Position numbers and translations under genes: made by a program. A DNA stretch of 64,000 bases, taken from the NCBI RefSeq assembly GCF_029763755.1, contig NZ_JARUVM010000009.1, positions 1-64,000 on the forward strand, read 5' to 3'. Position 1 is the stretch's first letter. Every line of letters begins with the position of its first letter. Below, piece by piece: positions 19,550-39,730 of the stretch. This DNA comes from Luteimonas sp. 8-5. Lineage in GTDB: Bacteria; Pseudomonadota; Gammaproteobacteria; Xanthomonadales; Xanthomonadaceae. The notes under the pieces are model-generated. The model searched no databases. It saw only the letters and a program-made list of their open reading frames with translations, and was not told the DNA's origin.

Positions 19550-20467
19550 TCAGGCAGCGGCGTATTCGATCGCCGCCCGCACCGCCGCCACCTGCGCCGC
19601 ATTGCACTGCGCAGGCGTGGCGCGCGGGCTGTCGGGATAGACTTCGGTGGTAGTGCGGTAGCGCGCATCGGTGATGCCGGCGCACAACCCCAGCTCCCTG
19701 AATGCGTAACGGATGACCCCGGCCGCCACCACCGGCGAGCCGATGATCGTGCCGTCCGGATCCGACGGCGCGATGTGCGTGACCTTCGCCACCGCATCGA
19801 TGATCGCGTCCTGGAATCCGGGCTGCGGCGTGTTCGCGTCGTCCACGAGATAGAACCCGTCCGGGATCGTGCCCGGCTCATGCGGCTTGCCGTCGCGCGC
19901 GGCCAGCGCCGGGCGGAACTCGGTTTCGTCGGTGTCGGTGGTTTCGTGCAGGTCGATGTGCACCAGCACCCGGTCGGCGAACGGCGCCACCAGGCGCATC
20001 AGCGCGGCAGACTCGCCGCAGGGGCTGTCCGCGCGGAAGGAACGGTTGGGATCCAGCGCATCGGGGTTCCAGCGATGGATGCGTTCGTAGGCCCAGGGGC
20101 TCACGCATGGCGCGACGATGACGTTGACCCGGTCGGCATAACCGGCCGCGTGTTCCTCGGCGAACTGCAACGCGCCGTGCACCCCACTGGTTTCGTAGCC
20201 GTGCACGCCGCCGGTGACCAGCGCCACGGGCAGGTCGTCGCGCCAGGCCCGGGTGCGGATCGCGTAGAGGGGGAAGCGGCCGTCTTCGCCGTAATCCAGG
20301 ACGCCGTACTCGTCGACGTCGAAGCGCGCGCGCAGGCGTTCGACGACGGCAAGCACGTCGTCGGCGTAGCTGCGCTGCTTCACCTGCCGTGCGCGCCATT
20401 GCGCGCGTTCACCGGCACCCCAGGGGACGCCCGGCGTGCCGATCGGATATGCGGTCTGGGTGCTCAT
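19550..20467 (-). CDS. M14-family zinc metallopeptidase (cytoplasmic; AstE/MpaA-like)
   Basis: A 305-residue protein without a signal peptide. Zinc ligands are visible as His89 and Glu92 in TGGVHGYETSG and His174 in HIDLHETTDTD; Glu275 in TTTEVYPD is the likely catalytic base, and Asn/Arg in DPNRSFR should bind the substrate carboxylate. The fold family includes MpaA, which cuts the gamma-D-Glu-diaminopimelate bond of murein peptides, and AstE/aspartoacylase deacylases. As the last gene of the TonB receptor-DUF1611-YkvI operon, a role in opening D-Glu peptides or N-acyl-Glu is favoured. It begins 10 bases after the YkvI-like stop. Which bond it cuts cannot be read from sequence. Confidence 0.82.
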   Translation of the reverse strand: MSTQTAYPIGTPGVPWGAGERAQWRARQVKQRSYADDVLAVVERLRARFDVDEYGVLDYGEDGRFPLYAIRTRAWRDDLPVALVTGGVHGYETSGVHGALQFAEEHAAGYADRVNVIVAPCVSPWAYERIHRWNPDALDPNRSFRADSPCGESAALMRLVAPFADRVLVHIDLHETTDTDETEFRPALAARDGKPHEPGTIPDGFYLVDDANTPQPGFQDAIIDAVAKVTHIAPSDPDGTIIGSPVVAAGVIRYAFRELGLCAGITDARYRTTTEVYPDSPRATPAQCNAAQVAAVRAAIEYAAA

Positions 20468-20477
20468 GCCCCCCAGT

Positions 20478-21599
20478 CTACTGCCGGCGCAGCACCAACC
20501 ACAGGCCCCAGGTCAGCAGCGGCAGCACGTAGATGGCCAGGAAGAACCAGGTCAGCGTTCCGTAGCCCCGGGCGATGAGGTCGACCAGGCCCACGGCGGT
20601 CGCTGCGTAGACCGCGAGCAGCATGACGCCGATCGCCAGCGCCGGCCGCAGCGATCGCGGCATCGGCCGCTGCCGTTCGGCCCACGCCGCCGCGACGCGC
20701 TCGTTGACCGCGTGCAGCAACGCCACGCCGGTGTCCACCAGGGTGAGCATCACCGCGATCTGGAACGCCCATTCGAACCACGGCGCATGCAGCCGCGCCA
20801 GCAGGAAGGCCGAGGGCAGCGCCACGTCCGCGATCTCGTGGTAGTAACCCATCATCGCGATGTAGAACACGATGCCCGGCAGCATGCCCAGTGGGCCGGC
20901 GAGCGCGCCGGCCACCAGCGCCTCGCGGCGGCGCGCGAAGTGGCGCACGCAGAACAGCACCGCCGGGATGGTGGCGACGTTGTAGCCGGCATAGGTCACG
21001 CCGGCCGTGAACCAACTTGTGGTGAACCAGCCGCCTTCGACAGGCACCGATGCGAAGTTGGCCTCGATGCGGTCGCCGAACGCGAACAGGCTCCAGGCGA
21101 CGAATACGAAGTACACCAGGTAGAGATATCCGACCGAGGCTACCAGGAACCGCTCGATCCCGGCCGTGCCGAAGAACAGCAGCGCCCCCGTGGCGGCGAT
21201 CATCGCCAGCGAGCCGGCGAGTTTCGGGATGCCGAACAGGCTTTGCGCGATCTCGCCCGCAGCCGCGCCCATCACCGCCATGATCACCAGGATCAGCAGC
21301 AGGTACCCGATCTCGAACGCGAACCAGCCGCGGCCGAGCAGGACCTTGAAGAAGGCGCGGTAGTCGTAGGCGCGATGGATGCGGGCGAGTTCGAAACTCA
21401 CCATCAGCACCGCGCTCCACACCAGCATGCTCACCGCCATGCCGAGCAGGCCGCCCCACGGCCCCGCCGGCAGGAAGAACTCCACCAGTTCGCGGCCGGT
21501 GGCATAACCGCCGGCGATCACCGCGGCCTGGAACACGAAGCCCGGCAGCAGGTAGCGCTGGAACCAGCCCGATGCCGTGTGCGCGCCGCCCGTCGTCAT
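20478..21599 (-). CDS. YkvI-family integral membrane protein, probable transporter
   Basis: A 373-residue protein with about ten hydrophobic segments. It starts FQRYLLPGFVFQAAVIAGGYATGRELVEFF, and has a family-typical broken first helix (GGYATGRE) like the LeuT-fold APC transporters. Other landmarks are TAGVTYAGYNVATIPAVLF and MLTLVDTGVALLHAVNERV. YkvI proteins are uncharacterised members of the APC superfamily, so a sodium- or proton-coupled amino acid carrier is plausible. The start overlaps the DUF1611 stop by four bases (ATGA) and the M14 gene follows after 10 bases, so it belongs to operon 2. In this context it could move glutamate or an N-acyl derivative across the inner membrane. Confidence 0.8.
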   Translation of the reverse strand: MTTGGAHTASGWFQRYLLPGFVFQAAVIAGGYATGRELVEFFLPAGPWGGLLGMAVSMLVWSAVLMVSFELARIHRAYDYRAFFKVLLGRGWFAFEIGYLLLILVIMAVMGAAAGEIAQSLFGIPKLAGSLAMIAATGALLFFGTAGIERFLVASVGYLYLVYFVFVAWSLFAFGDRIEANFASVPVEGGWFTTSWFTAGVTYAGYNVATIPAVLFCVRHFARRREALVAGALAGPLGMLPGIVFYIAMMGYYHEIADVALPSAFLLARLHAPWFEWAFQIAVMLTLVDTGVALLHAVNERVAAAWAERQRPMPRSLRPALAIGVMLLAVYAATAVGLVDLIARGYGTLTWFFLAIYVLPLLTWGLWLVLRRQ

Positions 21600-22600
21600 G
21601 CCAGGCAAGCGGCGACCAGCCGCAACAATTCGGGGCCGCCGCGCATCGGATCGGCGACTGGCAAGCCAAGGCGCTCGCGTTCGGCGGCAAGCACTGCATC
21701 GGCCTCGGCCGGCTGCAGCCTGCCGGTATTGAGGCTGACGCCGGCGCAACGGATCGCGGGGTTGGTGCGGCGACCCAGGCGCAATGTCAATTCGATGGTT
21801 TCCTCGATGCTGCACAGGCGCTGGTCGGGATAGCCAAGCATGGTTTCGCGGCCGTGCTCGTGGCACACGACGAAGACGTCGGGCTGGCTGCCGTGCAGCA
21901 ACGCAAGCGACACGCCGCCGTAGGCCGGATGGCACAACGCGCCCTGCCCTTCGATCACGTCCCAGTGCAGCGGATCGGCATCGGGCGACAGGTGCTCGGC
22001 GGCACCGGCGGCGAAGTCGCCGACCACGGCGTCCATGGGCACGCCCTGCCCCGCGATCAGGATTCCGGTCTGGCCGGTCGCGCGGAAGTCGGCGTCGATG
22101 CCGCGGCGCCGGAATTCGCGCGCCAGGGTCAGTGCCGTGTACTTCTTGCCCAAAGCGCAATCGGTACCGACGGTCAGCAGGCGCCTGCCGCTGCGCTTCC
22201 GCCCCGTCGCCACCGGAATGTCGGGCGGCGGCGTGCGCACGTCGACCAGGCGGCGGCCGAGCTCGACCGCGCGATCGCGCAGCGCGGCGATCCCGGACAG
22301 TCGGGCATGCATGCCGCCGACGAGATCCAGTCCGGCCTCCAGCGCCTGCAGCAACGCGGGCAACCAGGTGGCGGGAATGCGCCCGCCGGGGTTGGCGACG
22401 CCGATCACCATCGACTTCGCCCCCGCGGCATGGGCCTGGGCCGGCGTCAGGAACGCCAACCCCGTGCTGACCCGCACCCCGTCGCAGGCGAATTCGCCGA
22501 TGCAACGTTCGCCTGCCCAGTCGCGCAGGCCGAAGGCGGTCTTGGCGTACGCCGGCTCGGTGATGTCGCCCAGGAACAGCAGGTAGGGCTGCGGCAGCAC
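21596..22600 (-). CDS. DUF1611 family protein (DgcN-like, P-loop)
   Basis: A 334-residue protein from the GTG at 22600, two bases from the TonB receptor stop. The opening LPQPYLLFLGDITEPAYAKTAFGLRDW, the SMVIGVANPGGRIPATWLPALLQALEAGLD block and the atypical P-loop VGTDCALGKKYTAL (144-157) are hallmarks of DUF1611. EGQGALCHPAYGGVSLALLHGSQPD carries the distal nucleotide-site residues. A member named DgcN has been described as a D-glutamate N-acetyltransferase working with an epimerase-family racemase DgcA. The epimerase-like gene of operon 1 (28025) is the natural partner here. Whether this copy acetylates D-Glu or activates it otherwise is inference. It is coupled to the YkvI gene by an ATGA overlap. 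Confidence 0.83.
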   Translation of the reverse strand: MLPQPYLLFLGDITEPAYAKTAFGLRDWAGERCIGEFACDGVRVSTGLAFLTPAQAHAAGAKSMVIGVANPGGRIPATWLPALLQALEAGLDLVGGMHARLSGIAALRDRAVELGRRLVDVRTPPPDIPVATGRKRSGRRLLTVGTDCALGKKYTALTLAREFRRRGIDADFRATGQTGILIAGQGVPMDAVVGDFAAGAAEHLSPDADPLHWDVIEGQGALCHPAYGGVSLALLHGSQPDVFVVCHEHGRETMLGYPDQRLCSIEETIELTLRLGRRTNPAIRCAGVSLNTGRLQPAEADAVLAAERERLGLPVADPMRGGPELLRLVAACLA

Positions 22601-22601
22601 G

Positions 22602-24947
22602 TCAGAACCGGTAGTCCACTTCCAGCCCGAAGGTGCGCGGCTGGATCGGGACGCCACTCCAGTGGTCGGTCACGCCGGTGAGCGCGCTGTTGATCGGCGA
22701 GATGATCGACCAGGCGCGCTCGTCGGTGACGTTGTTGACGTAGGCGCGCACGGACCAGTGGTCCCATTCGATCCCCGCGTACAGGTCCACGGCGTGGTAT
22801 GCGTCGAGCTCGATCGGCGCGGTCAGCACTTCGTCCAGGATCGTCGATGCATCGCCGGGCATGGTGATGCGCTGGCGCTCGGTGGTGTCGTTCAAGCGCT
22901 CGCCCATGCCGCGCAGCACGGCGCCGACCTGGCCCTGCACGCGGCCAATGTCGAACAGGTACTCTGCGGTCGCCGACCACGCCAGCTTCGGCACGTAGGG
23001 CAGGCGGTCTCCGGCCAGACCAGTGTTGAGGATCACGTCGAAGCCCGGTTGCGGGATCACCGTCGACTCGAAGTCGCTCTTCACCGTCGCATCGGTGTAG
23101 GTCGCGTTGAGCCCGAGTTGCAGGCGGTTGGTCGGACGCAGGAAGGCCGACAGTTCGACGCCCTCGCTGGTGGCTTCGCCGCCGTTGATCAGGCCGCCGA
23201 TGCCATTGAACTGCGCCGCGACCTGGATGTCGTCCCAGTCGATGCGGAAGGCGGCCAGGTCGAGCTGCACGCGGCGGTCGGCGAACTGCGTCTTCAGGCC
23301 GACCTCGGCGCTGCGCAGCATCGACGAGTCCACGCTGGGCGGCATGCCCGGCAGCGCGACGTTGGGGCCGCCGGGCTGGTAGCCGGTGGCGACGCGCGCA
23401 TACACCATGGTGTCCTCGGAGAACTGGTACTGCGGCGCCAGGCTCCAGGTGGAGACGTCTTCCTCGGATTCGCCGGGTACGTCGCCGATCGGCGCGAGCA
23501 CGCCGGCGGGCACGTTCTGGCTGAACCACTGGTCGTTGCGCGCCTGGCGCAGGCCGGCGTCGATCTTGAAGCGCTCGCCCACGCGCAGCGAACCGTTGAC
23601 GAACAGCGCCGTCTCCCGGTACTCGCTGGGCAGGTCGATCACCGCCAGCACGCCGAACATTTCGTCGAACGGCGCCGGCAGCGGTGAGCCGTCGCGCTGC
23701 ATCAGCGGCACGAACTGGCTCTGGATCGCGTCCTCGCGGCTGTGGAACACACCGGCCTGCCATTCGAAACGGCCTCCGCTCTTCGAGCTCAGCCGGAATT
23801 CCTGGGTGAATTTCTCCAGATCCAGGGTGTAGCGGACGTGCGAGGCGCCTGCTTCGGGCAGGCCGAGCTGCAGGTTGGCGAACTCGCCGAACTGCACCGA
23901 GGCGTCGAGCTGGTACATCGTGTCGGTGTTGGACCAGCCGGTCGCGGACACGAAGTCGCCCCAGCCCAGATCCCAGTCGAGCGTCAGCGAGTACAGGTCC
24001 AGGTCCTTGGTGAAGGGCTGCGGCTGCCACGAACGCCCCTCGAAGTCGCCGCCGATCGGCGCGCCAGTGGCCGGGTCGAGGGCGACCGAAGCGGAGGTGT
24101 CGCTCTCCATGCCCTGGTGCAGCGCTGCCAGCTTCACGTCGACCGACTCGCCTTCCCACAGCAGCGCGGCGCGGGCACTGGTCTGGCGGGCGCCGTTGAT
24201 GTCGCGTTCGCCGTCGACCATGTTGTCGGTGTAGCCGGGAACCTCGTTGCGCGCATAGCTCAGGCGCAGGCCCAGGCGATCCTGCTGCAGCGGCAGGCTC
24301 GCGCCCAGGCGCACGTTCCAGCCCTGGTCGCCTTCCTGCACCGACGACAGTCCCGCGCCGACGCGGAACTCCGTCGCCGACAGGCTCGGCTCGCGGGTGA
24401 CGTACTTGAGCAGGCCGCCGATGGCGCCGGCGCCGTACAGCGTGCCCTGCGGACCGCGCAGCACCTCGATGCGGCTGATGTCGTAGGGCAGCAGGTCGAG
24501 GTTGAAGATGTTCGCGGCCTGGTACACGCCGCTGGAGCCCACCGGCACTTCGTCGACGTAGGTGGAGACGGTGGCGCCGGAGGAGATCGCGGCGATGCCG
24601 CGGATCGAGATCGAGGTCATGCCGGCGGTGCCGTTGTCCTGCACCTGCATGCCCGGCACCAGGTCGGCGTAGTCGGCCAGCGAGTTGGCGCCGATGTTCT
24701 CCAGTTCGCGCTCGCCGATGACGCTGATCGCGGCGGCGACTTCGCGCACGTTCTCCACGCGCTTGTTGGCGGTCACCACCACGGTGCCCAACTCGGTGGC
24801 TTCCTCGTCGGCCTGGGCCGACTGGCCCTGGGTCGCGGCCTCCTGGGCCATGACGGGCGCGGTGGTCGCGCAGGCGAGCGCGGCGGCGATGGCCAGCGCA
24901 AGCCGCGTGCGCGGGCGGGTAGTCGGATTCAACGGGATCGCGTTCAT
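22602..24947 (-). CDS. TonB-dependent outer membrane receptor
   Basis: A 781-residue receptor with a signal peptide (1 to about 35, cleaved after VMA). A plug domain (about 60-180: VREVAAAISVIGERELENIGANSLADYADLVPGMQVQ, ISIRGI, IEVLRGPQGTLYGAGAIGGLLKYVTREP) precedes a 22-strand barrel ending in the signature DYRF. The TonB-box region is near GTVVVTAN (about 54-61). Barrel repeats such as VYARVATGYQPGGPNVALPG and AEVGLKTQFADRRVQLDLAAFRIDWDDIQV are typical of the siderophore/oligosaccharide/peptide receptors of xanthomonads. It is the first gene of operon 2 and has a GGGGAGG ribosome-binding site. The substrate is inferred to be a D-amino-acid-containing peptide from its neighbours. Confidence 0.9.
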   Translation of the reverse strand: MNAIPLNPTTRPRTRLALAIAAALACATTAPVMAQEAATQGQSAQADEEATELGTVVVTANKRVENVREVAAAISVIGERELENIGANSLADYADLVPGMQVQDNGTAGMTSISIRGIAAISSGATVSTYVDEVPVGSSGVYQAANIFNLDLLPYDISRIEVLRGPQGTLYGAGAIGGLLKYVTREPSLSATEFRVGAGLSSVQEGDQGWNVRLGASLPLQQDRLGLRLSYARNEVPGYTDNMVDGERDINGARQTSARAALLWEGESVDVKLAALHQGMESDTSASVALDPATGAPIGGDFEGRSWQPQPFTKDLDLYSLTLDWDLGWGDFVSATGWSNTDTMYQLDASVQFGEFANLQLGLPEAGASHVRYTLDLEKFTQEFRLSSKSGGRFEWQAGVFHSREDAIQSQFVPLMQRDGSPLPAPFDEMFGVLAVIDLPSEYRETALFVNGSLRVGERFKIDAGLRQARNDQWFSQNVPAGVLAPIGDVPGESEEDVSTWSLAPQYQFSEDTMVYARVATGYQPGGPNVALPGMPPSVDSSMLRSAEVGLKTQFADRRVQLDLAAFRIDWDDIQVAAQFNGIGGLINGGEATSEGVELSAFLRPTNRLQLGLNATYTDATVKSDFESTVIPQPGFDVILNTGLAGDRLPYVPKLAWSATAEYLFDIGRVQGQVGAVLRGMGERLNDTTERQRITMPGDASTILDEVLTAPIELDAYHAVDLYAGIEWDHWSVRAYVNNVTDERAWSIISPINSALTGVTDHWSGVPIQPRTFGLEVDYRF

Positions 24948-25043: not shown

Positions 25044-26741
25044 TCATTCGGCGGGTTGCCAGCCCGGCCCGCGCACGAACCGGCCCGGCGTGGCGCCGGT
25101 GTGTTCGCCGTCGCGCAGCACCTGGACGCCGTTGACGAACACGTCGTCGACGCCGGTCGCGTAGCGCTGCGGCGCGTCGTAGGTGGCGTGGTCGGCGATG
25201 GCGACCGGGTCGAACACGACGATGTCGGCAAAGCAGCCGGCCTGCAGGCAGCCGCGATCGCGCAGCTTCCAGTTGGCCGCCGGGAGTCCGGTCAGGCGGT
25301 GGATGCCCTCCTCCAGCGGCATCAGCCCGCGGTCGCGCACGTAGCGGCCGAGGAAGCGCGCGACGTTGCCGTAGGCGCGCGGATGGGTGCTGGCCTTGAG
25401 GAACACGCCTTCGGGCGCCGACGACTCGGCGTCGGAACCCAGGCTGACCCACGGCTGGCGCAGCCCGAGCTCCACGTTCTCCTCGCTCATCAGGAAATAC
25501 GCCGCGCCCACCCGCGAGTCGTCCTCGACGATCAGGTCGATCAGGGTTTCGGCGCCTGACTTGCCGCGCTCGGCGGCCACGCTCTGCAAGGTGCGGCCGG
25601 TCAGCGGCTTGAGCGCCGGATTCCTGAAGTCGAGCAGCAGCAGGCGCTCGTCGGAGCCTGCGAGCAGGCGCAGGTTCTCCCACTCGACGTCGGGGTCGGC
25701 CATCTCGGCGAGCACGCGCTCGCGGATCGCGGGGTCGCGCAGGCGCTCCACCATCGCGGCATGGCCGTCGGCCTGCACCCACGGCGGCAGCGCCGCGGTC
25801 AGTCCGGTCGCGCCGGCGGTATAGGCGTACATGTTGGCGCTGACCTTCAGGCCTTCGCCGCGCGCTGCTTCGACCCGTTCGATGGCCTGCGCCATCTTCG
25901 GCCAGTTCTTCTCGCCGGCCGCCTTGAAATGGTAGACCTCGGCGCGCTCTCCGGTGGCGCGGGCGATGGCGATGGTTTCGTCAAGCGCATCCAGGAAACG
26001 GTCGGCCTCGCTGCGCATGTGGCTGATGTAGCCGCCACCGGATTCGGCCGCGGCCTGCGCCAGCGCCACGATTTCCCCAGGCTCGGCGAAGGCCGCCGGC
26101 GGATAGATCAGCGAGGTGCCGACGCCCAGCGCGCCCTCGGCCATGGCCGCGCGCACCAGGTCCTGCATTTGCGCCAGCTGTGCGGCATCGGGGTCGACAT
26201 CGGCTTCGCCGAGCACGTTCATGCGCACCGTGGTCGCGCCGACGAAGGAAGCGACGTTCGGGGTGATGCCGCGGGTCTCGAGGAATTCGAGGTACTCGCC
26301 CAGCGTGGTCCACTGGATGGGATAGCGGATGTCGCCCTGCTGGGCCACGGCGTCGGCCTTCATGCGCTCGTCCAGCGGCCCCATCGACCAGCCCTCGCCG
26401 AAGATCTCCAGGGTGACGCCTTGCTTGGTGTCGCTCATGCCACGCCCGTCGACGATGAGCGAATCGACCGCCCAGCTCAGGGTGTTGATGAAGCCGGGCG
26501 CGACCGCGCGACCGCTCGCATCCAGTACCTGGCGTGCACTCGCTTTACTGCCCGGCGGCAGCAACGCGGCAATGCGGTCGCCTTCGACCGCCACGTCCAC
26601 GCGCCGCGGCGCGGCACCGCTGCCGTCGTAGACCAGGCCGTTGCGGATCAGCACGTCGTAGGACGCCACTGGCGCATCAGCAGCAGGCGTGGCGGCGCAG
26701 GCAGCCAGTGCGAGTGTGAGCAGGGCAATGGGCATGCGCAT
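25044..26741 (-). CDS. D-aminoacylase-like amidohydrolase lipoprotein lacking the HxH metal motif
   Basis: A 565-residue lipoprotein (lipobox LAAC, Cys15). The amidohydrolase fold is clear: VYDGSGAAPRRVDVAVEGDRIAAL for the beta-sandwich, GYISHMRSEADRFLDALDE and VYHFKAAGEKNWPKMAQAIERV for the barrel, then SLGSDAESSAPEG and THPRAYGNVARFLGRYV as in N-acyl-D-amino-acid deacylases. However, the place where the family has GFIDxHxH reads PGFINTLSW (82-90), so both N-terminal metal histidines are replaced by Leu and Trp. I have a general memory of a subfamily with this pattern, so it may be a stable variant and not a dead gene. It is the last gene of operon 1, anchored in the envelope. An intact paralogue lies at 37252. 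Confidence 0.83.
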   Translation of the reverse strand: MRMPIALLTLALAACAATPAADAPVASYDVLIRNGLVYDGSGAAPRRVDVAVEGDRIAALLPPGSKASARQVLDASGRAVAPGFINTLSWAVDSLIVDGRGMSDTKQGVTLEIFGEGWSMGPLDERMKADAVAQQGDIRYPIQWTTLGEYLEFLETRGITPNVASFVGATTVRMNVLGEADVDPDAAQLAQMQDLVRAAMAEGALGVGTSLIYPPAAFAEPGEIVALAQAAAESGGGYISHMRSEADRFLDALDETIAIARATGERAEVYHFKAAGEKNWPKMAQAIERVEAARGEGLKVSANMYAYTAGATGLTAALPPWVQADGHAAMVERLRDPAIRERVLAEMADPDVEWENLRLLAGSDERLLLLDFRNPALKPLTGRTLQSVAAERGKSGAETLIDLIVEDDSRVGAAYFLMSEENVELGLRQPWVSLGSDAESSAPEGVFLKASTHPRAYGNVARFLGRYVRDRGLMPLEEGIHRLTGLPAANWKLRDRGCLQAGCFADIVVFDPVAIADHATYDAPQRYATGVDDVFVNGVQVLRDGEHTGATPGRFVRGPGWQPAE

Positions 26742-26765: not shown

Positions 26766-28028
26766 TCAGGAAAGCGAACGGATCGGGCGATCGAGCCACC
26801 ACAGCAACGCGGCTGCGGCGACTGCCAGGCCTGCGAGCAGCAGGAAGAAGCCCGAATGGCTGGCACTGGACCACAGCGCGCCGACCAATCCTGCAAGCAG
26901 GCTACCGCTGAAGATGGCCAGGAACCACGAGGCGACCGTGGTCGCGCCGAGCCGCGGCGGCGCCAGTTTCGCGAACAGGCCCAGGCCGGTCGGCAGGATG
27001 TGCAGTTCGCCGAACGTGAGGATGGCGAAGAACGCCACCACCCACAGCCAGCTCGCGCGCGCCTCGCCGGACAGCGCGGTGACCAGCGCCAGCATCAGGT
27101 AGGCCGCGGCCACGATCAGCGCGCCGGCGGCCATGCGCATCGCGGGCGGGGTATCGCCGCGCAGGTCGCTGCGGCGCCGCCAGTACCAGAGCAGGAACGG
27201 CGTCATGGCGATGACCAGCAGCGGGTTGAGCGACTGGAACCAGGTCATGGGTATGACCGAACCGGCCCACGCGCGGTCCACGCCGGTATCGATCCACAGC
27301 GGCAACGTGTTGCCGACCTGTTCGTAAGCGCCGCGGAAGATCGTGGCAGCGATGCCCACGCCCAGCAGCAGGAAGAAGACCTTGCGCCGGTCGCTGCGCT
27401 CGCCGCCCAGGGGCGTGGCGGGCACGGCGCGGCGCTGCAACTCCGGCGGCAGGTAGTTGCGCCCGAGCAGGTAGATCACCAGGCCGGCGAACATGCCGAT
27501 GCCCGCGGCACCGAAGCCGTAGTGCCAACCGTAGAGTTCACCAAGCGTGCCGCACACCAGCGGCGCCATGAACCCGCCGATGTTCAACCCGACGTAGTAG
27601 ACGTTCCAGGCGCGGCCGCGGCGCGGATCGCCCGGTGCATACAGGTCGTTGATCTGGCTGGGCAGGCTCGGCAGGAACAGGCCGTTGCCCAGCGCGATCG
27701 TGCCCAGCGCAAAATAGAACATCGGCTCGAAGGCCATGGCGAAATGCCCGAGCGCCATGATGCCGCCACCGATCACCACCGCGTTGCGCTTGCCCAGCCA
27801 GCGGTCGGAGATCGCGCCGCCCAGGATCGGCGTGAAGTAGGCCATCGCGGTGTAGGCGCCGTAGATGAAGGACGCCTTCTCCTGCGCAAACAGCAGCTCC
27901 TTGGTCATGTAATAGACCAGCAGCGTGCGCATTCCGTAGTAGGAGAACATCTCCCACATCTGGGTCAGGAACAGGATCGTCAGGCCGCGCGGCTGGCCGA
28001 ACCAGGTCCTGTCCGCCACGGCGTTCAC
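26766..28028 (-). CDS. POT/PTR2-family proton-coupled peptide transporter
   Basis: A 420-residue MFS protein with about 12 membrane segments. The POT signature is visible in FLTQMWEMFSYYGMRTLLVYYMTKELLF and in YTAMAYFTPILGGAISDRWLGKRNAVVIGGGIMALGHF. The usual ExxERFxYYG reads WEMFSYYG, so the Arg after the second Glu is replaced by Met, a change near the proton-coupling site. The GTG at 28028 overlaps the epimerase stop as GTGA and is preferred over a second GTG four codons later. The protein should import di- and tripeptides across the inner membrane, feeding the epimerase encoded directly upstream. It lies third in operon 1, 24 bases before the D-aminoacylase homologue. Confidence 0.86.
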   Translation of the reverse strand: MNAVADRTWFGQPRGLTILFLTQMWEMFSYYGMRTLLVYYMTKELLFAQEKASFIYGAYTAMAYFTPILGGAISDRWLGKRNAVVIGGGIMALGHFAMAFEPMFYFALGTIALGNGLFLPSLPSQINDLYAPGDPRRGRAWNVYYVGLNIGGFMAPLVCGTLGELYGWHYGFGAAGIGMFAGLVIYLLGRNYLPPELQRRAVPATPLGGERSDRRKVFFLLLGVGIAATIFRGAYEQVGNTLPLWIDTGVDRAWAGSVIPMTWFQSLNPLLVIAMTPFLLWYWRRRSDLRGDTPPAMRMAAGALIVAAAYLMLALVTALSGEARASWLWVVAFFAILTFGELHILPTGLGLFAKLAPPRLGATTVASWFLAIFSGSLLAGLVGALWSSASHSGFFLLLAGLAVAAAALLWWLDRPIRSLS

Positions 28029-29023
28029 GTACGCGGCCCCCAGACCGCGTCGTTGCAATCGATGCAACCGCCGGCGTAACGCACCGTCGGCTCGCGATCG
28101 TGGGCCAGGAAGATCGGCCCGTCGAGGTCGACGACATCGCAATGCTGTCCGAGCACGAATGCAGGCGCCATCGCCAGGCTGGTGCCGCACATGTTGCCGA
28201 CCATCACCTGCTTGCCCAGTTCACGGGCGCGCGCGGCCATCATCAGCCCCTCGGTCAGGCCGCCGCACTTGTCCAGCTTGATGTTGACCACGTCGAAGTT
28301 GTGGTGCCGCGCCTCGAGTTCGGCCAGGTCGAGGATGCTTTCGTCGGCGGCGAATGGAACGACGCGCTCGATCCCGTCCAGTTCGTGTTCGCGGCCGCGC
28401 GCGCAGGGTTGCTCGAGCAGCGATACCCGCGCCTCGAGCAATGCCGGTAGCAGCGCCGGCAAGCTGCCGGCCGCATACCCCTGGTTCGCGTCCACGCCGA
28501 TCCACGGATCGGGGCAGCGCGCGCGCACGGCGCGCACCCGCGCGATGTCGAGGTCGAGCTCGCCGGTGAGTTTCAGCTTGAGTGCGCGCGCGCCGGTGAA
28601 CGCGGCAGCGCGTTCGGCCATGGTCTCCGGGTCGTCGGCACCGATGGTGAAGGTGGTGACCAGCGGGCGCACTGCGTGCAGCCCCGCCAGCTTCCAGACC
28701 GGCAAGCCGCTTCGTTGCGACTCGAGCTCCCACAGCGCGCAGTCGAGCGCGTTGCGTGCGCCGCCGGCGGGCAGCAGCTCGCGCAGTGCCTGCCGGTCGA
28801 TGCCGGCCTCGATCTCGTCGCGCAAGGCTTCCAGAGTGGCGAGCATGGTGTCGGGGCCGTCGCCGGTGTAGTACACACCGGCTGCCTCGCCGCGCCCGGT
28901 GTACTTGCCTTCGCGCAGCGTCGCGATGGTAGCGGGCATCGCCTCGAAGACGTGCCCGGCGATCCGGAACGGAGCCGCCAGTCGCAGCGGCTCGTTGTGC
29001 AGCTCCAGGACCAGACGCCCCAC
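28025..29023 (-). CDS. Enolase-superfamily dipeptide epimerase (L-Ala-D/L-Glu epimerase/DgcA-like)
   Basis: A 332-residue member of the muconate-lactonizing subgroup. The active-site lysines are KLK (Lys149, Lys151) and Lys249/Lys252 in VNIKLDKCGG; metal ligands are Asp178 (VDAN), Glu204 (LEQP) and Asp227 (ADES). A C-terminal D-L-D (Asp299, Asp301) corresponds to the DxD that binds the dipeptide ammonium group in L-Ala-D/L-Glu epimerases such as YcjG. That favours a dipeptide epimerase; the DUF1611 gene in operon 2 raises the alternative of an N-acetyl-D-Glu racemase (DgcA). The GTG at 29023 has a GAGG site; a GTG at 29047 overlapping the upstream gene is possible. It overlaps the transporter gene by four bases. 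Confidence 0.85.
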   Translation of the reverse strand: MGRLVLELHNEPLRLAAPFRIAGHVFEAMPATIATLREGKYTGRGEAAGVYYTGDGPDTMLATLEALRDEIEAGIDRQALRELLPAGGARNALDCALWELESQRSGLPVWKLAGLHAVRPLVTTFTIGADDPETMAERAAAFTGARALKLKLTGELDLDIARVRAVRARCPDPWIGVDANQGYAAGSLPALLPALLEARVSLLEQPCARGREHELDGIERVVPFAADESILDLAELEARHHNFDVVNIKLDKCGGLTEGLMMAARARELGKQVMVGNMCGTSLAMAPAFVLGQHCDVVDLDGPIFLAHDREPTVRYAGGCIDCNDAVWGPRT

Positions 29024-29033
29024 GGCGCCGCCC

Positions 29034-31058
29034 TCAGTAGTTCGCACCGAAGCCCATCAGGTGGTTGGCGAAACCAATCCACAGCGTGAACAGGCAAGCC
29101 AGGGCCAGCAACACCGCCCACAGCTTCGCCAGCCAGCGGCGGCGACCGCGCAGCACGACCCATGCATTCCAGACACCGATGGCGGCGGCCACCGGCAAGG
29201 CCACCAGCGCGAACAGGCGCAGTGCCACGATCAGGCCGTCGCTGTCGGGACTGGTGAGCGCCAGGTCGTTGAACATCGACAGCACCAGGGCGAGCACGCC
29301 ACCGACCGCCAGCAGCGCCAGCAGCGCCGCGATGCGCACCAGCCGGTGCGCGCGCGCATCGATGCCCGACAGCCGGTACGGCACGCCGTAGTAGCGGCGC
29401 ACCAGCGCGGAGACCGGCCAGGCCAGCAGCGTCAGCAACAGGATTGCCAAGCTCGCGACCAGCAGCGGCATGGCCAGCGCGTCCCACGCCGACAGGCGCT
29501 GGAACACCATGATCGGCGCGAACGGCTCCAGGGTGAAACGCGTGACCTGGCCGTCGACGACGTCGGCCGCAAGGCGGTCGGCACCAGCCACGTCCTGCCA
29601 CACATACGGCGACACTTCGCGCCACTTGCGCGGCACGCCGTTGGCGCCCAGTGCCAGCGACACGCTGATCGTGCCGTCCTCGTTGGCCAGTACCTTGATC
29701 GGCCCGAGCAGGTTGGCCAGCGACATGAACGTGGTTTCGGGGCGGCGGCTGCTGGTGTAGGTGCCGGCGATCTGCGCGGCATGCTCCCTGGCGACTTCCT
29801 CGGACACGCCCTGCGCCGTCTCGGCCGTGCCCGGCAGGTAGCGGTCGGCGAAGTTGCGGACCAGCGCATTGCGCACATGCCCGGTCGCGCCCTCGCGGCC
29901 GGAACTGTTCATCGACACGAAGATGCCGATGCCGTCGTCGGGGAACAGTTGCAGGTCGCTATGGAACCACTGCGTGTCGCCGCCGTGGGCGATCGCGCGA
30001 TGGCCGTTCACCGAGGTTTCGTAGAAGCCGAGCATCATCCGGTTGAGCGGCCCCACCGACGCCTGGCCGGTGGTGTGCATCATGCGCGCGGTGTCGGCGC
30101 CGAGGATGCGCGCGTCGCCGTAGGCGCCGCCCTGCAGGTGGGCGAGCATGAAGCGGGCCATGTCCGCGCCGGTCGAGGCCAGGCTCCCGGCCGGGGCCAG
30201 GCTGATGTACTCGTACTCCTTCGCTTCGCCCTCGGAGGCGCGCGCGTAGCCCTTCGACATGCCGGCAAGCAATGCAGGCGGCAGCGGCTGCCTGAAACTG
30301 GAATGGGCCATCCCCAACGGCTCGAAGATGTGCCGGTCGATGTAGTCGTCGAAGGATTCGCCGGACACGCGCTCGACGATGTAGCCGGCCAGCGCGGTGG
30401 CGTAGTTGGAATAGGCCGGCGTGGTCCCGGGCTCGTGGATGCGCTCGGGCACCCAGTGCTTCAGCGCCTCGCCCAGCGGGGTGATCTCCGAGTCCTTGGC
30501 CGTGATCAGCGCGCGGATCTGCTCTTCCATGCCCGTGGTGTGGGTCATGATCTGCCGCAGCGTCGCCGGCTTGCCGTCGCGCTCGGGCACGGTGAAGTCG
30601 ATGTACTGGTTGACGTCGGCGTCCAGGTCCAGCTTGCCCTGCTCCACCAGCTGCATCACCGCCGTCCAGGTGAACAGCTTGGAGATCGAACCGGGGCGGA
30701 ACAGCGTGGCTTCCGGATCCACCGGCGACCGCGTGGCCAGGTCCGAGTAGCCGTAGCCCTTCTGCAGCAGCACCTGGCCGTCATCGACGACCACCACGAC
30801 GGCGCCTGCGATGTCGCCGGTGGCCAGCGCATAGGGGACGAATCCGTCGAGCCAGGCTTCGACATCGTCGCGCGTCAGCACGGGCACGCCGTCGGCCGGC
30901 GCCGGCGGCACCAGGTCGCCGGCTGCGGCCGGATCGGCGGGAATCGTCGCCGGCGGCAAGGATGCCGGTGCGCCCGTCGTTTCCTGGGCGGAAACCTGGC
31001 CCAGGCCGGCCACCGCGGCCATCAGCAAACCACACAACATCCCCGGAATCGCGCGCAT
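29034..31058 (-). CDS. Membrane-anchored SxxK serine hydrolase (beta-lactamase fold plus four C-terminal membrane helices)
   Basis: A 674-residue protein, first gene of operon 1. It has a signal peptide (1 to about 24), a Pro/Ala-rich spacer, then the SxxK fold with SISK (124-127), YSN (216-218) and AHGGDTQ as third motif. A beta-rich linker domain (about 430-530) leads to four hydrophobic helices (about 540-665: LAMPLLVASLAILLLTLL, IAALLALLAVGGVLALVL, ALRLFALVALPVAAAIGVW, LWAVLLALACLFTLWIGF). The catalytic domain faces the periplasm. It could be a DD- or D-amino-peptidase that trims D-residue peptides before uptake by the POT carrier. The promoter P1 and operator B lie 30-60 bases upstream of the ATG. 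Confidence 0.87.
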   Translation of the reverse strand: MRAIPGMLCGLLMAAVAGLGQVSAQETTGAPASLPPATIPADPAAAGDLVPPAPADGVPVLTRDDVEAWLDGFVPYALATGDIAGAVVVVVDDGQVLLQKGYGYSDLATRSPVDPEATLFRPGSISKLFTWTAVMQLVEQGKLDLDADVNQYIDFTVPERDGKPATLRQIMTHTTGMEEQIRALITAKDSEITPLGEALKHWVPERIHEPGTTPAYSNYATALAGYIVERVSGESFDDYIDRHIFEPLGMAHSSFRQPLPPALLAGMSKGYARASEGEAKEYEYISLAPAGSLASTGADMARFMLAHLQGGAYGDARILGADTARMMHTTGQASVGPLNRMMLGFYETSVNGHRAIAHGGDTQWFHSDLQLFPDDGIGIFVSMNSSGREGATGHVRNALVRNFADRYLPGTAETAQGVSEEVAREHAAQIAGTYTSSRRPETTFMSLANLLGPIKVLANEDGTISVSLALGANGVPRKWREVSPYVWQDVAGADRLAADVVDGQVTRFTLEPFAPIMVFQRLSAWDALAMPLLVASLAILLLTLLAWPVSALVRRYYGVPYRLSGIDARAHRLVRIAALLALLAVGGVLALVLSMFNDLALTSPDSDGLIVALRLFALVALPVAAAIGVWNAWVVLRGRRRWLAKLWAVLLALACLFTLWIGFANHLMGFGANY

Positions 31059-37251: not shown

Positions 37252-38826
37252 CTAGGCGCCGCGACGCAACAGGCGCCCGGCACGTGCGGCCGACTCGCCG
37301 TTCTCGTACGCCGGCTGTCCGTTGACCAGGACCAGGTCGAAACCCTCGGCCATCGTCTTCGGATGCACGTAGTCGGCGCGGGCGCGCACCTTCGCCGGGT
37401 CGAACAGCAGCATGTCCGCCTTCGCGCCTTCGCGAATGGAGCCGCGGTCGGCGATGCCGAGGATCGAGGCCGGCAGGGATGTCGCCTTGCGCACGGCTTC
37501 CTCGATCGGCAGCAGCGGCCTGGCGACGACGAACTCCTGGATGAAGCGTGCGAACGTCCCCGCAGAACGCGGGTGGCTGCCGCCGGGCGAACCGTCGCTA
37601 CCCAGGGCCACGAACGGCGCCAGCAACAGGCGGTCCTGCAAGGCGCGGTCCATCACGAAGTGCGCGGCCTGGCCGCCACCGGGACCGATGTCGAGCAGCA
37701 CGTCGGGCCAGGCCTTGCCCTGCTTTGCCGCCACCTGCGCCAGGGTCTCGCCGGCATGCGGGCCAGTACCGAACAGCAACGCCTCCGGCCCGTTGCGCTG
37801 TTCCACGCGCTGCTGAAGGTGGGCACGCAGTTCGGCGCCGCGTTCGCGGCGGACGCTGTCGTAGTCGCTGGGTGGCAGCGCCCATTCCGGGAACACGATC
37901 GCCACGCCGGTGTAGCTGGCTTCGTAGGGATAGGCGTCGGCCGTCAGCGCCTTGCCGCCGTCGCGCAGGCCGCGCAGGAAGTCGAGCAGGTCATCCGCCG
38001 CGGCCTCGCCCTTGCCGTAGACCATCTTCAGGTGCGAGACGTGGGCACGCGCCGGACCGCTCGCCTCGACGAGCTCACGGATCGAGTCTCGCACCGAGCC
38101 GGCATCCTCGTTGCGCATGTGGCTCATGGCCACGCCGTCGTGGCGCGCGATCACCGGGCCGAGGCTGGCGAGCTCGCGCATTTCCGCATAGCGTCCCGGC
38201 ACGTATTCCAGGCCGGTGGACATGCCGAACGCACCCGCGCGCAAGTCCGCGTCGAGGATCGCCTGCAGGCGTTCGAGTTGCGCATCGGTGGGCTTGCGGG
38301 TGCCGTCGTCGATGCCGGCACGGCGGCGCAGCGCGCCATGGCCGGACAGCGTGGCGACGTTGACGTCGGGGTTGGCCGCCGCCACCGCATCCATCCATGC
38401 CGGCAAGCTGTCGGCGGCGCGACCGGAGTCGCGCAGCGCGGGGCTGCCGCCGTCCTGGCCGAGCAGCACGGTGGTCACGCCCATGGCCAGGTACTGGGTG
38501 TAGGCCGACTGCAAGGGATCGCCATGGGTATGCAGGTCGATGAAGCCCGGCGCCAGCACGCGCCCGCCGCCATCGACCACGCGCAGGCCGCGCGCGTCTC
38601 CGGTGCCGATCCGTCCGATGCGCTCGATCCGGTCGCCGCGCACCAGCACATCGGTGCGCAAGCCGGGCCGGCCGCTGCCGTCGACCAGCAGCACGTCGCG
38701 CAGCACCACGCCGGCGACCGCATCGCTCGCCAGCCCGGCGGCCAGCAACCGCGGCGCCATGCCGCACGCTCCCCCGGCCGCCATCGCCGCCAGGAATTCC
38801 CGCCTCGACCAGCCTTGACTCCCCAT
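37252..38826 (-). CDS. Tat-exported N-acyl-D-amino-acid deacylase (D-aminoacylase)
   Basis: A 524-residue protein with a twin-arginine signal (SRREFLAAMAAGG at 7-19). All metal-site motifs are intact: APGFIDLHTHGDP (HxH), AMSHMRNEDAG, ARAHVSHLKMVYGKG and LGSDGSPGGSHPRSAGTF (catalytic Asp). It should release D-amino acids from N-acyl or N-terminally blocked D-residues in the periplasm with zinc. Unlike the lipoprotein homologue at 25044 it keeps both His of HxH. It starts at the ATG at 38826, monocistronic and far from operons 1 and 2, and no GGGATNATNATCCC site was seen before it. Confidence 0.87.
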   Translation of the reverse strand: MGSQGWSRREFLAAMAAGGACGMAPRLLAAGLASDAVAGVVLRDVLLVDGSGRPGLRTDVLVRGDRIERIGRIGTGDARGLRVVDGGGRVLAPGFIDLHTHGDPLQSAYTQYLAMGVTTVLLGQDGGSPALRDSGRAADSLPAWMDAVAAANPDVNVATLSGHGALRRRAGIDDGTRKPTDAQLERLQAILDADLRAGAFGMSTGLEYVPGRYAEMRELASLGPVIARHDGVAMSHMRNEDAGSVRDSIRELVEASGPARAHVSHLKMVYGKGEAAADDLLDFLRGLRDGGKALTADAYPYEASYTGVAIVFPEWALPPSDYDSVRRERGAELRAHLQQRVEQRNGPEALLFGTGPHAGETLAQVAAKQGKAWPDVLLDIGPGGGQAAHFVMDRALQDRLLLAPFVALGSDGSPGGSHPRSAGTFARFIQEFVVARPLLPIEEAVRKATSLPASILGIADRGSIREGAKADMLLFDPAKVRARADYVHPKTMAEGFDLVLVNGQPAYENGESAARAGRLLRRGA

Positions 38827-38944
38827 GCCGTGCCCCTTGCTTCGGTCGACGCAGGTTACATGACCATCCGCACCCTGCCCTGTGGCACTCGTCCTGCCTG
38901 GCCCCTCGCCGTGGAATCCCACGACCCCCTTTTTGGAACGCCCC

Positions 38945-39730
38945 ATGCTCACCACTTTCGTCCTTGCAACCGCATTGTCCACGGTGGCGCCCGCCGACCT
39001 CCACGTCGAACGCCTGCATCCGGGCACCGCGACCTACCTGGTCTACTTCCATGGGGCACCCGGCACCGGGATCAGCAAGGCGATGCTGGCCACGTCCACC
39101 GTCAGCCGCGAGCAGGTGGACGGCGAGGACGCCTGGGTGATCGAGCAGCACTGGGAGAACGAAACGGGCATCGCGCACACCGCGCGCACCGTCCATGCTG
39201 TGGAGGATCTATCGACGCTGTCCCAACTCTCCACCTGGCACCGGCCCGGCGCCAGCATCACCACACGCGTCGTCCCCGCCGAGGGCCAGGGCACGATCGA
39301 AGGCGAACTGCCTGCCGACCGCCGCGAGCGCATGGAGCAGGGATTTGCGGCGATGGACGATGGCTGGTGGCTCAACTGGCATTCCGACCTGGCGCTGCTG
39401 CCGTTGCTGCCTTACGAGCGCGGGGGCACCTTGCGCGTGCGCCTGTTCGATGTCGGCATGCCGGCGCCGATGGATGTCGACTACACCGTGATCGGCGAGC
39501 GTACGCTGCAGGGGGGCGATGGCACCACCCGGTACGACTGCTGGCTGGTCGAGACCGAAAGCGGTAGCCCCGGCAGCGGCAACTACCAGCGCTTCTGGAT
39601 CGACAAGGAGCGCCGCATCGTGGTCAAGGAAGAGGACGTGTTCAACGGCCAGTACCGCTCCAAGGTCCTGCTCGGGGTGCCGGCGGTCGTGGAGTTTGCC
39701 CTCCCCGGCTCCGCGACCGCCGCACCCTGA
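38945..39730 (+). CDS. Exported protein of unknown function (261 aa)
   Basis: A 261-residue protein with a short N-terminal hydrophobic signal (MLTTFVLATALSTVAPA). The mature part is beta-rich, for example DLHVERLHPGTATYLVYFHGAPGTGISKAMLATSTVSRE, then GWWLNWHSDLALLPLLPYERGGTLRVRLFDVGMPAPMDVDYTVIGERTL and NYQRFWIDKERRIVVKEEDVFNGQYRSKVLL. The late region resembles DUF3108-type envelope proteins, which form lipocalin-like barrels, but I am not sure of the family. It is divergent from the D-aminoacylase and converges with the M13 peptidase. No catalytic residues are apparent. Confidence 0.68.
   Translation: MLTTFVLATALSTVAPADLHVERLHPGTATYLVYFHGAPGTGISKAMLATSTVSREQVDGEDAWVIEQHWENETGIAHTARTVHAVEDLSTLSQLSTWHRPGASITTRVVPAEGQGTIEGELPADRRERMEQGFAAMDDGWWLNWHSDLALLPLLPYERGGTLRVRLFDVGMPAPMDVDYTVIGERTLQGGDGTTRYDCWLVETESGSPGSGNYQRFWIDKERRIVVKEEDVFNGQYRSKVLLGVPAVVEFALPGSATAAP

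Follow-up and report, generated by a model that had tools for sequence, protein, structure and literature searches.

Can a protein with the fold of a D-aminoacylase still be an enzyme when the HxH pair (x, any residue) of its metal site has been replaced? The question is raised by a 565-aa protein encoded on the reverse strand at positions 25,044 to 26,741 of a 64,000-nucleotide stretch of Luteimonas sp. 8-5 (assembly GCF_029763755.1, contig NZ_JARUVM010000009.1, positions 1 to 64,000; hereafter the window). An original prediction had described it, from the sequence alone, as a D-aminoacylase homologue that has lost HxH but keeps the rest of the fold. Judged from its relatives, the Leu-x-Trp (LxW) site that replaces HxH belongs to a conserved clade, is not a mutation and does not look like a broken copy. 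The protein is read here, with a probability of about 0.55, as a hydrolase of the cell envelope that carries a single catalytic divalent metal and releases D-amino acids from N-acyl or peptidyl precursors.

The altered site and its relatives

The open reading frame is complete, with an ATG start and without an internal stop, and its product begins with MRMPIALLTLALAACAATP, in which a lipobox-like LAAC agrees with the earlier call of a lipoprotein. The protein passes the gathering cut-off of Pfam PF07969 Amidohydro_3 (63.8 bits vs 29.7), scores 185.3 bits with NCBIfam NF006560 (PRK09061), under the curated cut-off of 340, and matches a D-aminoacylase in a PDB sequence search (E 2e-72). An AlphaFold 2 (AF2) model built from a 64-sequence alignment has a mean predicted local distance difference test score (pLDDT) of 94.4 and a predicted template modelling score (pTM) of 0.92, and its best VIA match is 1v4y (Z 54.6, root-mean-square deviation 1.9 over 467 residues). 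The top nine VIA rows (Z 53.7-54.6) are chains of D-aminoacylase, N-acyl-D-Glu deacylase, N-acyl-D-amino-acid deacylase or the deacetylase PpOngB, and the tenth drops to Z 33.7; against 1m7j the template modelling (TM) score is 0.78 by query and 0.92 by target. In the model, a D-aminoacylase-type (beta/alpha)8-barrel spans the whole chain, as the claim of a retained fold had it.

Amidohydrolase metal sites are located at barrel strand ends, and the site residues of the model lie at or just past such ends (strands 84-87, 109-114, 237-241, 267-269 and 432-434). Where D-aminoacylases read GFIDxHxH, translation gives GFINTLSW (residues 83-90), with Leu88 and Trp90 in place of the strand 1 HxH pair, and the later motifs SHMRSE (from S240), YHFKAAG (from Y270) and GSDAESS (from G435) are kept; in both respects the first description holds. 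Its view that the loss is confined to HxH does not, as the beta-site Cys ligand motif GNCG is also gone, replaced by a GEG one residue shorter (residues 115-117), and a further conserved His is Ala169. Relatives were divided by this motif into a Cys type (GNCG and similar), an Asp type (GxDG) and a Glu type, to which the window protein belongs. Position 169 is Ala in 97% of 97 Glu-type sequences and His in all 18 Cys-type sequences with both beta-site His. Present in the window protein are the two beta-site His (H241, H271), the catalytic Asp (D437) and the substrate anchors Lys, two Tyr and Arg (K273; Y213, Y305 and R455, the last three in 97/97 Glu-type sequences), the anchor set being Lys254, Tyr194, Tyr285 and Arg379 of PpOngB with equivalents assigned via the D-aminoacylase alignment. 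Residues E116, H241, H271, K273 and D437 all fall among the 69 invariant columns of the 64-sequence alignment (chance about 3e-5).

Genome contigs were scanned with the patterns QGVTLE.. and HPR.YG.., which exclude the site positions (one ends adjacent to Glu116), and the best 80 of at least 591 relatives were kept; counts of 80 refer to these. Glu116, His241, His271, Lys273 and Asp437 are present in 80/80, Leu88 in 78/80 and Trp90 in 79/80, so that the family alignment proposed with the original prediction shows LxW as a conserved state rather than one unique to this sequence. The 80 relatives come from Pseudomonadota, Acidobacteriota, Gemmatimonadota, Verrucomicrobiota, Planctomycetota, Bacteroidota, Chloroflexota, Ignavibacteria and KSB1, and Glu-type members of Deinococcota and Actinomycetota are located on plasmids. 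Eight other Luteimonas genomes searched gave no match of the Glu type, which would fit a mutation in this genome or an artefact of its assembly or sequencing; with the altered site common to the 80 best relatives, apart from single-residue exceptions, and the frame intact, the chance of either is close to nil. A viral origin was rejected, none of 32 pattern-matching stretches in viral contigs being a relative by tblastn. The PDB sequence search returned no clade member, its 11 sequences being canonical D-aminoacylases, relatives and other amidohydrolases, and a literature search at title and abstract level, which is not proof of absence, found no description of an HxH-less D-aminoacylase. By these comparisons the Glu type is a large uncharacterised branch of the D-aminoacylase fold.

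A 150-sequence set was assembled from the scan relatives, further genome searches and 12 of 30 listed plasmid matches (67 records matched), with duplicates removed, L043 left out (N-terminal motif missing) and L094, the same gene as L032, counted once. HxH is present in 24/24 Cys-type and 21/21 Asp-type sequences and absent from 105/105 of the Glu type, where the site reads LxW in 92, LxH in 5, MxH in 5, and LxQ, MxW and HxW in 1 each; in this set, loss of HxH is thus strictly coupled to the change from the Cys to the Glu motif (105/105 without HxH vs 45/45 Cys- and Asp-type sequences with it). Trees were built by a quick method with the site columns left out, and the Glu type occupies one side of a branch both with 80 of 138 rows (Shimodaira-Hasegawa-like approximate likelihood ratio test, SH-aLRT, 92) and with 75 of 150 rows (SH-aLRT 95), so the coupling most likely reflects a single ancient event, since retained, rather than many independent ones. 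Deinococcus (with MSH) as well as Embleya and Rhodococcus (both with LSH) have Glu-type proteins that retain the second His, and because these branch outside the LxW core, they suggest a stepwise loss in which the first His went along with the Cys-to-Glu change and Trp replaced the second His later. Two LxH members lie within the core (L034, L125), so this second step would not be strictly one-way.

A mirror-image variant was also seen: in 4 of 24 Cys-type sequences (L044, L057, L059 and the second copy of L119) HxH and Cys are kept and both beta-site His and the Asp motif are altered, with Gln aligned to His241 and Pro, Leu or Val aligned to His271. In L117 a Glu-type and an Asp-type copy stand back to back, and in L174 and the window such copies are separated by about 6 kb and about 10 kb, respectively. 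The window's Asp-type copy, 34% identical to the Glu-type protein, keeps GFIDLHTHG, as first noted, and is itself not canonical, since GQDGGS (Asp for Cys) replaces GNCG; it is one of the 21 Asp-type sequences. Its N-terminal part carries SRREFLAAMAAGG, which resembles a twin-arginine signal.

A one-metal hydrolase as the favoured reading

In the favoured reading a single divalent metal, probably zinc, would sit at the beta site on His241 and His271, with Glu116 as the most likely third ligand, its longer side chain perhaps still reaching the metal from one residue earlier. Asp437 would activate the metal-bound water and then protonate the leaving amine, Lys273, Tyr305 and Arg455 would hold the carboxylate and the acyl part, and Leu88 and Trp90 would occupy the old alpha site. 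N-acylated or peptidyl D-amino acids would enter via the neighbouring TonB receptor, the protein would release the D-amino acids, and the POT symporter and a DgcN/DgcA-type pathway would take up and convert the products, e.g. D-glutamate. We infer the metal, the substrate and the Glu116 ligation. A mono-metal enzyme was the best of the three roles suggested originally, but loss of HxH is not what makes a one-metal site, as PpOngB is already a single-zinc enzyme with HxH.

Several features of the site weigh against this reading. HMMER and hhalign alignments pair Glu116 with the Asn preceding Cys and leave a gap opposite Cys, an offset that makes Glu116 as metal ligand the weak point of the site model. 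The anchor Ser (Ser291 of PpOngB) is Ala311 in the window protein; this position is Ala in 71/97 and Ser in 14/97 Glu-type sequences and Ser in 12/18 of the Cys type. The mutation H68A or H70A, at either HxH position, is described as abolishing PpOngB activity (PMC12017989), and the AxA mutant of mycobacterial NagA is likewise described as dead (PMC6016474). With these non-polar mutants inactive, Leu and Trp would be expected to be harmful unless the site has re-adapted, and the precedent of NagA, which concerns polar residues, counts against assuming that activity survives them.

The PpOngB mutants, together with the combined loss of HxH, the Cys ligand and the further conserved His, are what speaks for a pseudoenzyme that binds D-residues or peptides or acts as a periplasmic chaperone, the other two roles suggested originally. 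Such a role fits poorly and is improbable, since the two metal His and the catalytic Asp, along with the majority of the anchors, do not vary: the beta-site His pair, Asp and anchor Lys are held in 80/80 best relatives across about nine phyla, which is unlike a decayed site. A two-metal enzyme with a rebuilt alpha site, in which for example Glu112 or Glu116 replaces HxH, is less probable still. Glu112 is found in 93/97 Glu-type sequences where 13/18 of the Cys type have Val, which speaks for a rebuilt site, but it is also found in 3/18 Cys-type sequences that keep HxH; Leu and Trp are bulky and non-polar at the alpha site, and one metal is reported to suffice for PpOngB (PMC12017989).

Gene neighbourhood and the likely substrate

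Neighbour genes were called with a codon-model caller, and the same-strand cluster of the window runs in the order serine hydrolase, DgcA-like, POT symporter, Glu-type protein, TonB receptor, DgcN-like, membrane protein and AstE/AspA-like (Table 1). The gene had rightly been placed in a peptide operon, to which the DgcA-like and DgcN-like genes are now added. The membrane protein, presumably YkvI-like, is a conserved multi-helix candidate transporter, found at 7 loci including the window in protein clustering. In published accounts, DgcN is the key gene of a pathway that irreversibly racemizes acidic D-amino acids and the corresponding amides (PMC12363236), and the DgcN-DgcA route turns D-Glu into L-Glu (PMC10845958).

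Table 1. Features of the window discussed in the text, with coordinates in the window and the basis of each assignment.
Feature	Coordinates	Strand	Basis
D-aminoacylase-fold lipoprotein, Glu type (565 aa)	25044..26741	-	Pfam PF07969, AF2 model, VIA match to 1v4y
Lipobox-like LAAC (residues 12-15), putative lipidation site	26697..26708	-	Translation
GFINTLSW, Leu88/Trp90 instead of HxH pair	26472..26495	-	Translation, relatives; after strand 84-87 in model
Glu116 of GEG, putative ligand beside or instead of Cys metal ligand (GNCG)	26394..26396	-	80/80 best relatives
Ala169, position of conserved His in Cys-type relatives	26235..26237	-	Residue counts in homologues
His241 (SHMRSE), predicted metal ligand	26019..26021	-	80/80 best relatives; end of strand 237-241
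His271, predicted metal ligand, and Lys273, predicted carboxylate anchor	25923..25931	-	80/80 best relatives
Asp437 (GSD), predicted catalytic base/acid	25431..25433	-	80/80 best relatives; after strand 432-434
Asp-type paralogue, HxH kept, GQDGG; outside cluster	37252..39027	-	Sequence comparison
Serine hydrolase, beta-lactamase (S12-like) superfamily	29037..31058	-	PF00144 217 bits; best NCBIfam AmpH 89.9 bits, under cut-off 266
DgcA-like (N-acetyl-D-Glu racemase)/dipeptide-epimerase-like enolase-superfamily protein	28028..29023	-	NF042940 352.9 bits (cut-off 400), NF011708 203.1 (cut-off 343)
POT-family peptide symporter	26769..28028	-	TIGR00924 270.3 bits vs cut-off 130.2
TonB-dependent outer-membrane receptor	22605..24947	-	PF00593, PF07715
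DgcN-like (DUF1611)	21599..22600	-	PF07755 240.4 bits; NF041892 432.6 bits (cut-off 480)
Hydrophobic membrane protein	20481..21608	-	No Pfam or NCBIfam family matched
AstE/AspA-like deacetylase	19553..20467	-	PF24827 31 bits (cut-off 25); NF052223 44.9 bits, under cut-off 400

Dgc-type clusters, reordered or divergent, lie beside 8/80 loci of gamma- and alphaproteobacteria and Verrucomicrobiota (L060, L061, L070, L096, L100, L113, L118 and L136, the contig of L060 stopping before DgcN) and beside L165 and L177 from the further genome searches. A side is cut off at 44/80 loci; among the 36 loci whose flanks both exceed 9 kb, 5 have such a cluster. Croceicoccus has a TonB receptor, DUF1611, a hypothetical gene, a serine hydrolase and the Glu-type gene together. 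Among near relatives, excluding the window's own genome, DgcN is present in 7/11 genomes with a Glu-type gene vs 2/48 without (p 3e-5, a value that ignores kinship).

M19 enzymes can cleave L-D dipeptides. An M19 dipeptidase is fused to the Glu-type protein in two Planctomycetes (L110:10001-12835, L115:10001-12880), and M19 genes occur less than 1.5 kb away in L107 and L120 and 3.7-3.8 kb away in L113 and L118; farther out than 4 kb, the 672 kb of flank contained none. The count of serine hydrolases was 11 in the nearest 1.5 kb (226 kb of flank), 3 between 1.5 and 4 kb (341 kb) and 8 at greater distances (672 kb); the near vs far p of 0.002 is biased towards near, since the queries are near neighbours. 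The M19 query came from L110, whereas L089, L136 and L186, not the window's own protein, supplied those for serine hydrolases; for L089, L110 and L136 the query genes themselves are among the near matches. Three of four Deinococcus plasmids carry on one strand ABC-transporter genes, a serine hydrolase, the Glu-type gene and a MurR/RpiR regulator; D. ficus has another serine hydrolase and a membrane dipeptidase interposed, and the fourth plasmid is without this set. An HxH-bearing haloarchaeal relative adjoins diaminopimelate decarboxylase, NlpC/P60, dipeptide epimerase and serine hydrolase genes. The common theme of these neighbourhoods appears to be D-amino acids in peptides, including cell-wall stems.

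The tie to D-glutamate is weakened by other counts. The DgcN-like and DgcA-like proteins of the window score under their cut-offs (Table 1), each still having that model as its best NCBIfam match, and they may form a separate sub-branch of D-Glu pathway enzymes. No Dgc-type cluster is found at 72/80 loci, 24/80 loci have no same-strand neighbour of at least 120 aa within 250 bp, and G022 carries a Dgc-type cluster without a Glu-type gene. Scans for neighbour families covered 53 upstream proteins, after three short ones out of 56 had been set aside, and all 45 downstream; they found no upstream family in more than 6/53 (DUF3471 6, Beta-lactamase 5, Peptidase_M19 2) and no downstream family in more than 3/45. 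Across phyla, DgcN-like proteins (at least 420 bits) are present in 13/50 carriers, taken from 50 of the 80 locus genomes, vs 31/199 Pseudomonadota genomes that include the window's own, a difference that is not significant (p 0.098); any DUF1611-type match is present in 22/50 vs 32/199. With Dgc clusters in a minority, no significant co-occurrence across phyla and scores under the cut-offs, the D-glutamate link may be limited to a subset of loci.

The protein might instead be an active single-metal hydrolase of another amide, for instance a lipid amide, an N-acetylated sugar or an acyl-amino acid of L configuration, the Dgc link being incidental. Loci outside Dgc-type clusters and those without a close same-strand neighbour agree with this, as does the reported move of the fold to carbohydrates in PpOngB (PMC12017989), and one Glu-type member (L032:862-3171, P0002; the same gene in L094) has a C-terminal Laminin_G_3 domain (54.1 bits, cut-off 27.6). 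We consider another amide unlikely, as M19, serine hydrolase and DgcA/DgcN-like genes recur nearby and indicate D-amino acids or peptides. Somewhat less doubtful, and still tentative, is the idea that the Glu type forms a separate catalytic class, with a Glu/His/His metal, a second-metal pocket packed by Leu and Trp and a specificity moved from acetyl to the peptide bond before a D-residue, as in an L-D peptidase or a D-peptide amidase. With M19 enzymes, serine hydrolases and DgcN/DgcA, such a class would recover D-amino acids from D-peptides, those of the cell wall included.

D-amino acids are a slowly degraded part of bacterial debris. If the hydrolase reading preferred here is right and the protein is active, a secreted step is added to D-amino acid salvage, many annotations are to be corrected, and a metallo-hydrolase can remain functional after the joint loss of HxH, its Cys ligand and one more His; if it is inactive, it is a remarkably conserved pseudoenzyme. 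The apparent intermediates (HxH with Cys, LxH or MxH with Glu, LxW with Glu) exist in living species and can be tested by mutation.

Comparison with known enzymes

The whole fold is common to the window protein, the D-aminoacylase of Alcaligenes (PDB 1m7j, 1v4y, 1rjp; we take Alcaligenes to be the host genus of 1m7j) and the N-acyl-D-Glu deacylase of Bordetella (3gip), with Z 54-55 and 34-36% identity over 467-468 residues for 1v4y, 1m7j and 3gip, and so are the two beta-site His, the catalytic Asp and the Lys/Tyr/Arg substrate anchors. Unlike these D-aminoacylases, the window protein has LxW for HxH, GEG for GNCG, Ala for the further His and a lipoprotein-like N-terminus, and relative to the Cys-type profile it has extra residues at about 315-366 and 441-447. 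Public plasmid records label Glu-type proteins 'D-aminoacylase' or 'amidohydrolase family protein', and proteins so annotated are without residues essential in the characterised relative PpOngB. As both HxH and Cys are absent, the protein should for now be named a D-aminoacylase-fold protein, Glu type, rather than a D-aminoacylase.

Metal-dependent bile salt hydrolases were rejected as relatives, being described as an amidohydrolase of another kind, in which the two His are present along with a carboxylated Lys (PMC13081902), and a Caenibius bile-salt study, in the part drawn on, mentions induced D-aminoacylases without sequences and was not used here (PMC12882949). Compared with the DgcN-DgcA D-glutamate pathway, the window cluster has both a DgcN-like and a DgcA-like gene; the portions of the pathway accounts cited here mention no D-aminoacylase-type partner (PMC10845958, PMC12363236).

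Mononuclear NagA of the E. coli type is a superfamily precedent for a one-metal enzyme without HxH. Its metal ligands are Glu/His/His, with the Glu ligand from another strand. The NagA of E. coli and V. cholerae is described as having QxN for HxH, and the QxN mutant of mycobacterial NagA as active (PMC6016474). The window protein has Leu and Trp where NagA has polar Gln and Asn, and family and substrate differ.

The closest mechanistic comparison is with PpOngB, a GlcNAc1A deacetylase (PDB 9kb1, 9kb3, 9kb4) that has the same fold (Z 53.8-54.4) and in which the D-aminoacylase fold has moved to carbohydrates. PpOngB is reported to hold one zinc at the beta site on Cys97, His222 and His252, with top activity at about 1:1 zinc, to use Asp368 as base and acid, and to need His68 and His70, which are not ligands and are thought to assist Asp (PMC12017989). 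By alignment, the Glu-type branch keeps the putative counterparts of His222, His252, Asp368, Lys254, Tyr194, Tyr285 and Arg379 and is without those of Cys97, His68, His70 and, mostly, Ser291. If the inference holds, a single beta-site metal and an Asp base would be common to PpOngB and the window protein.

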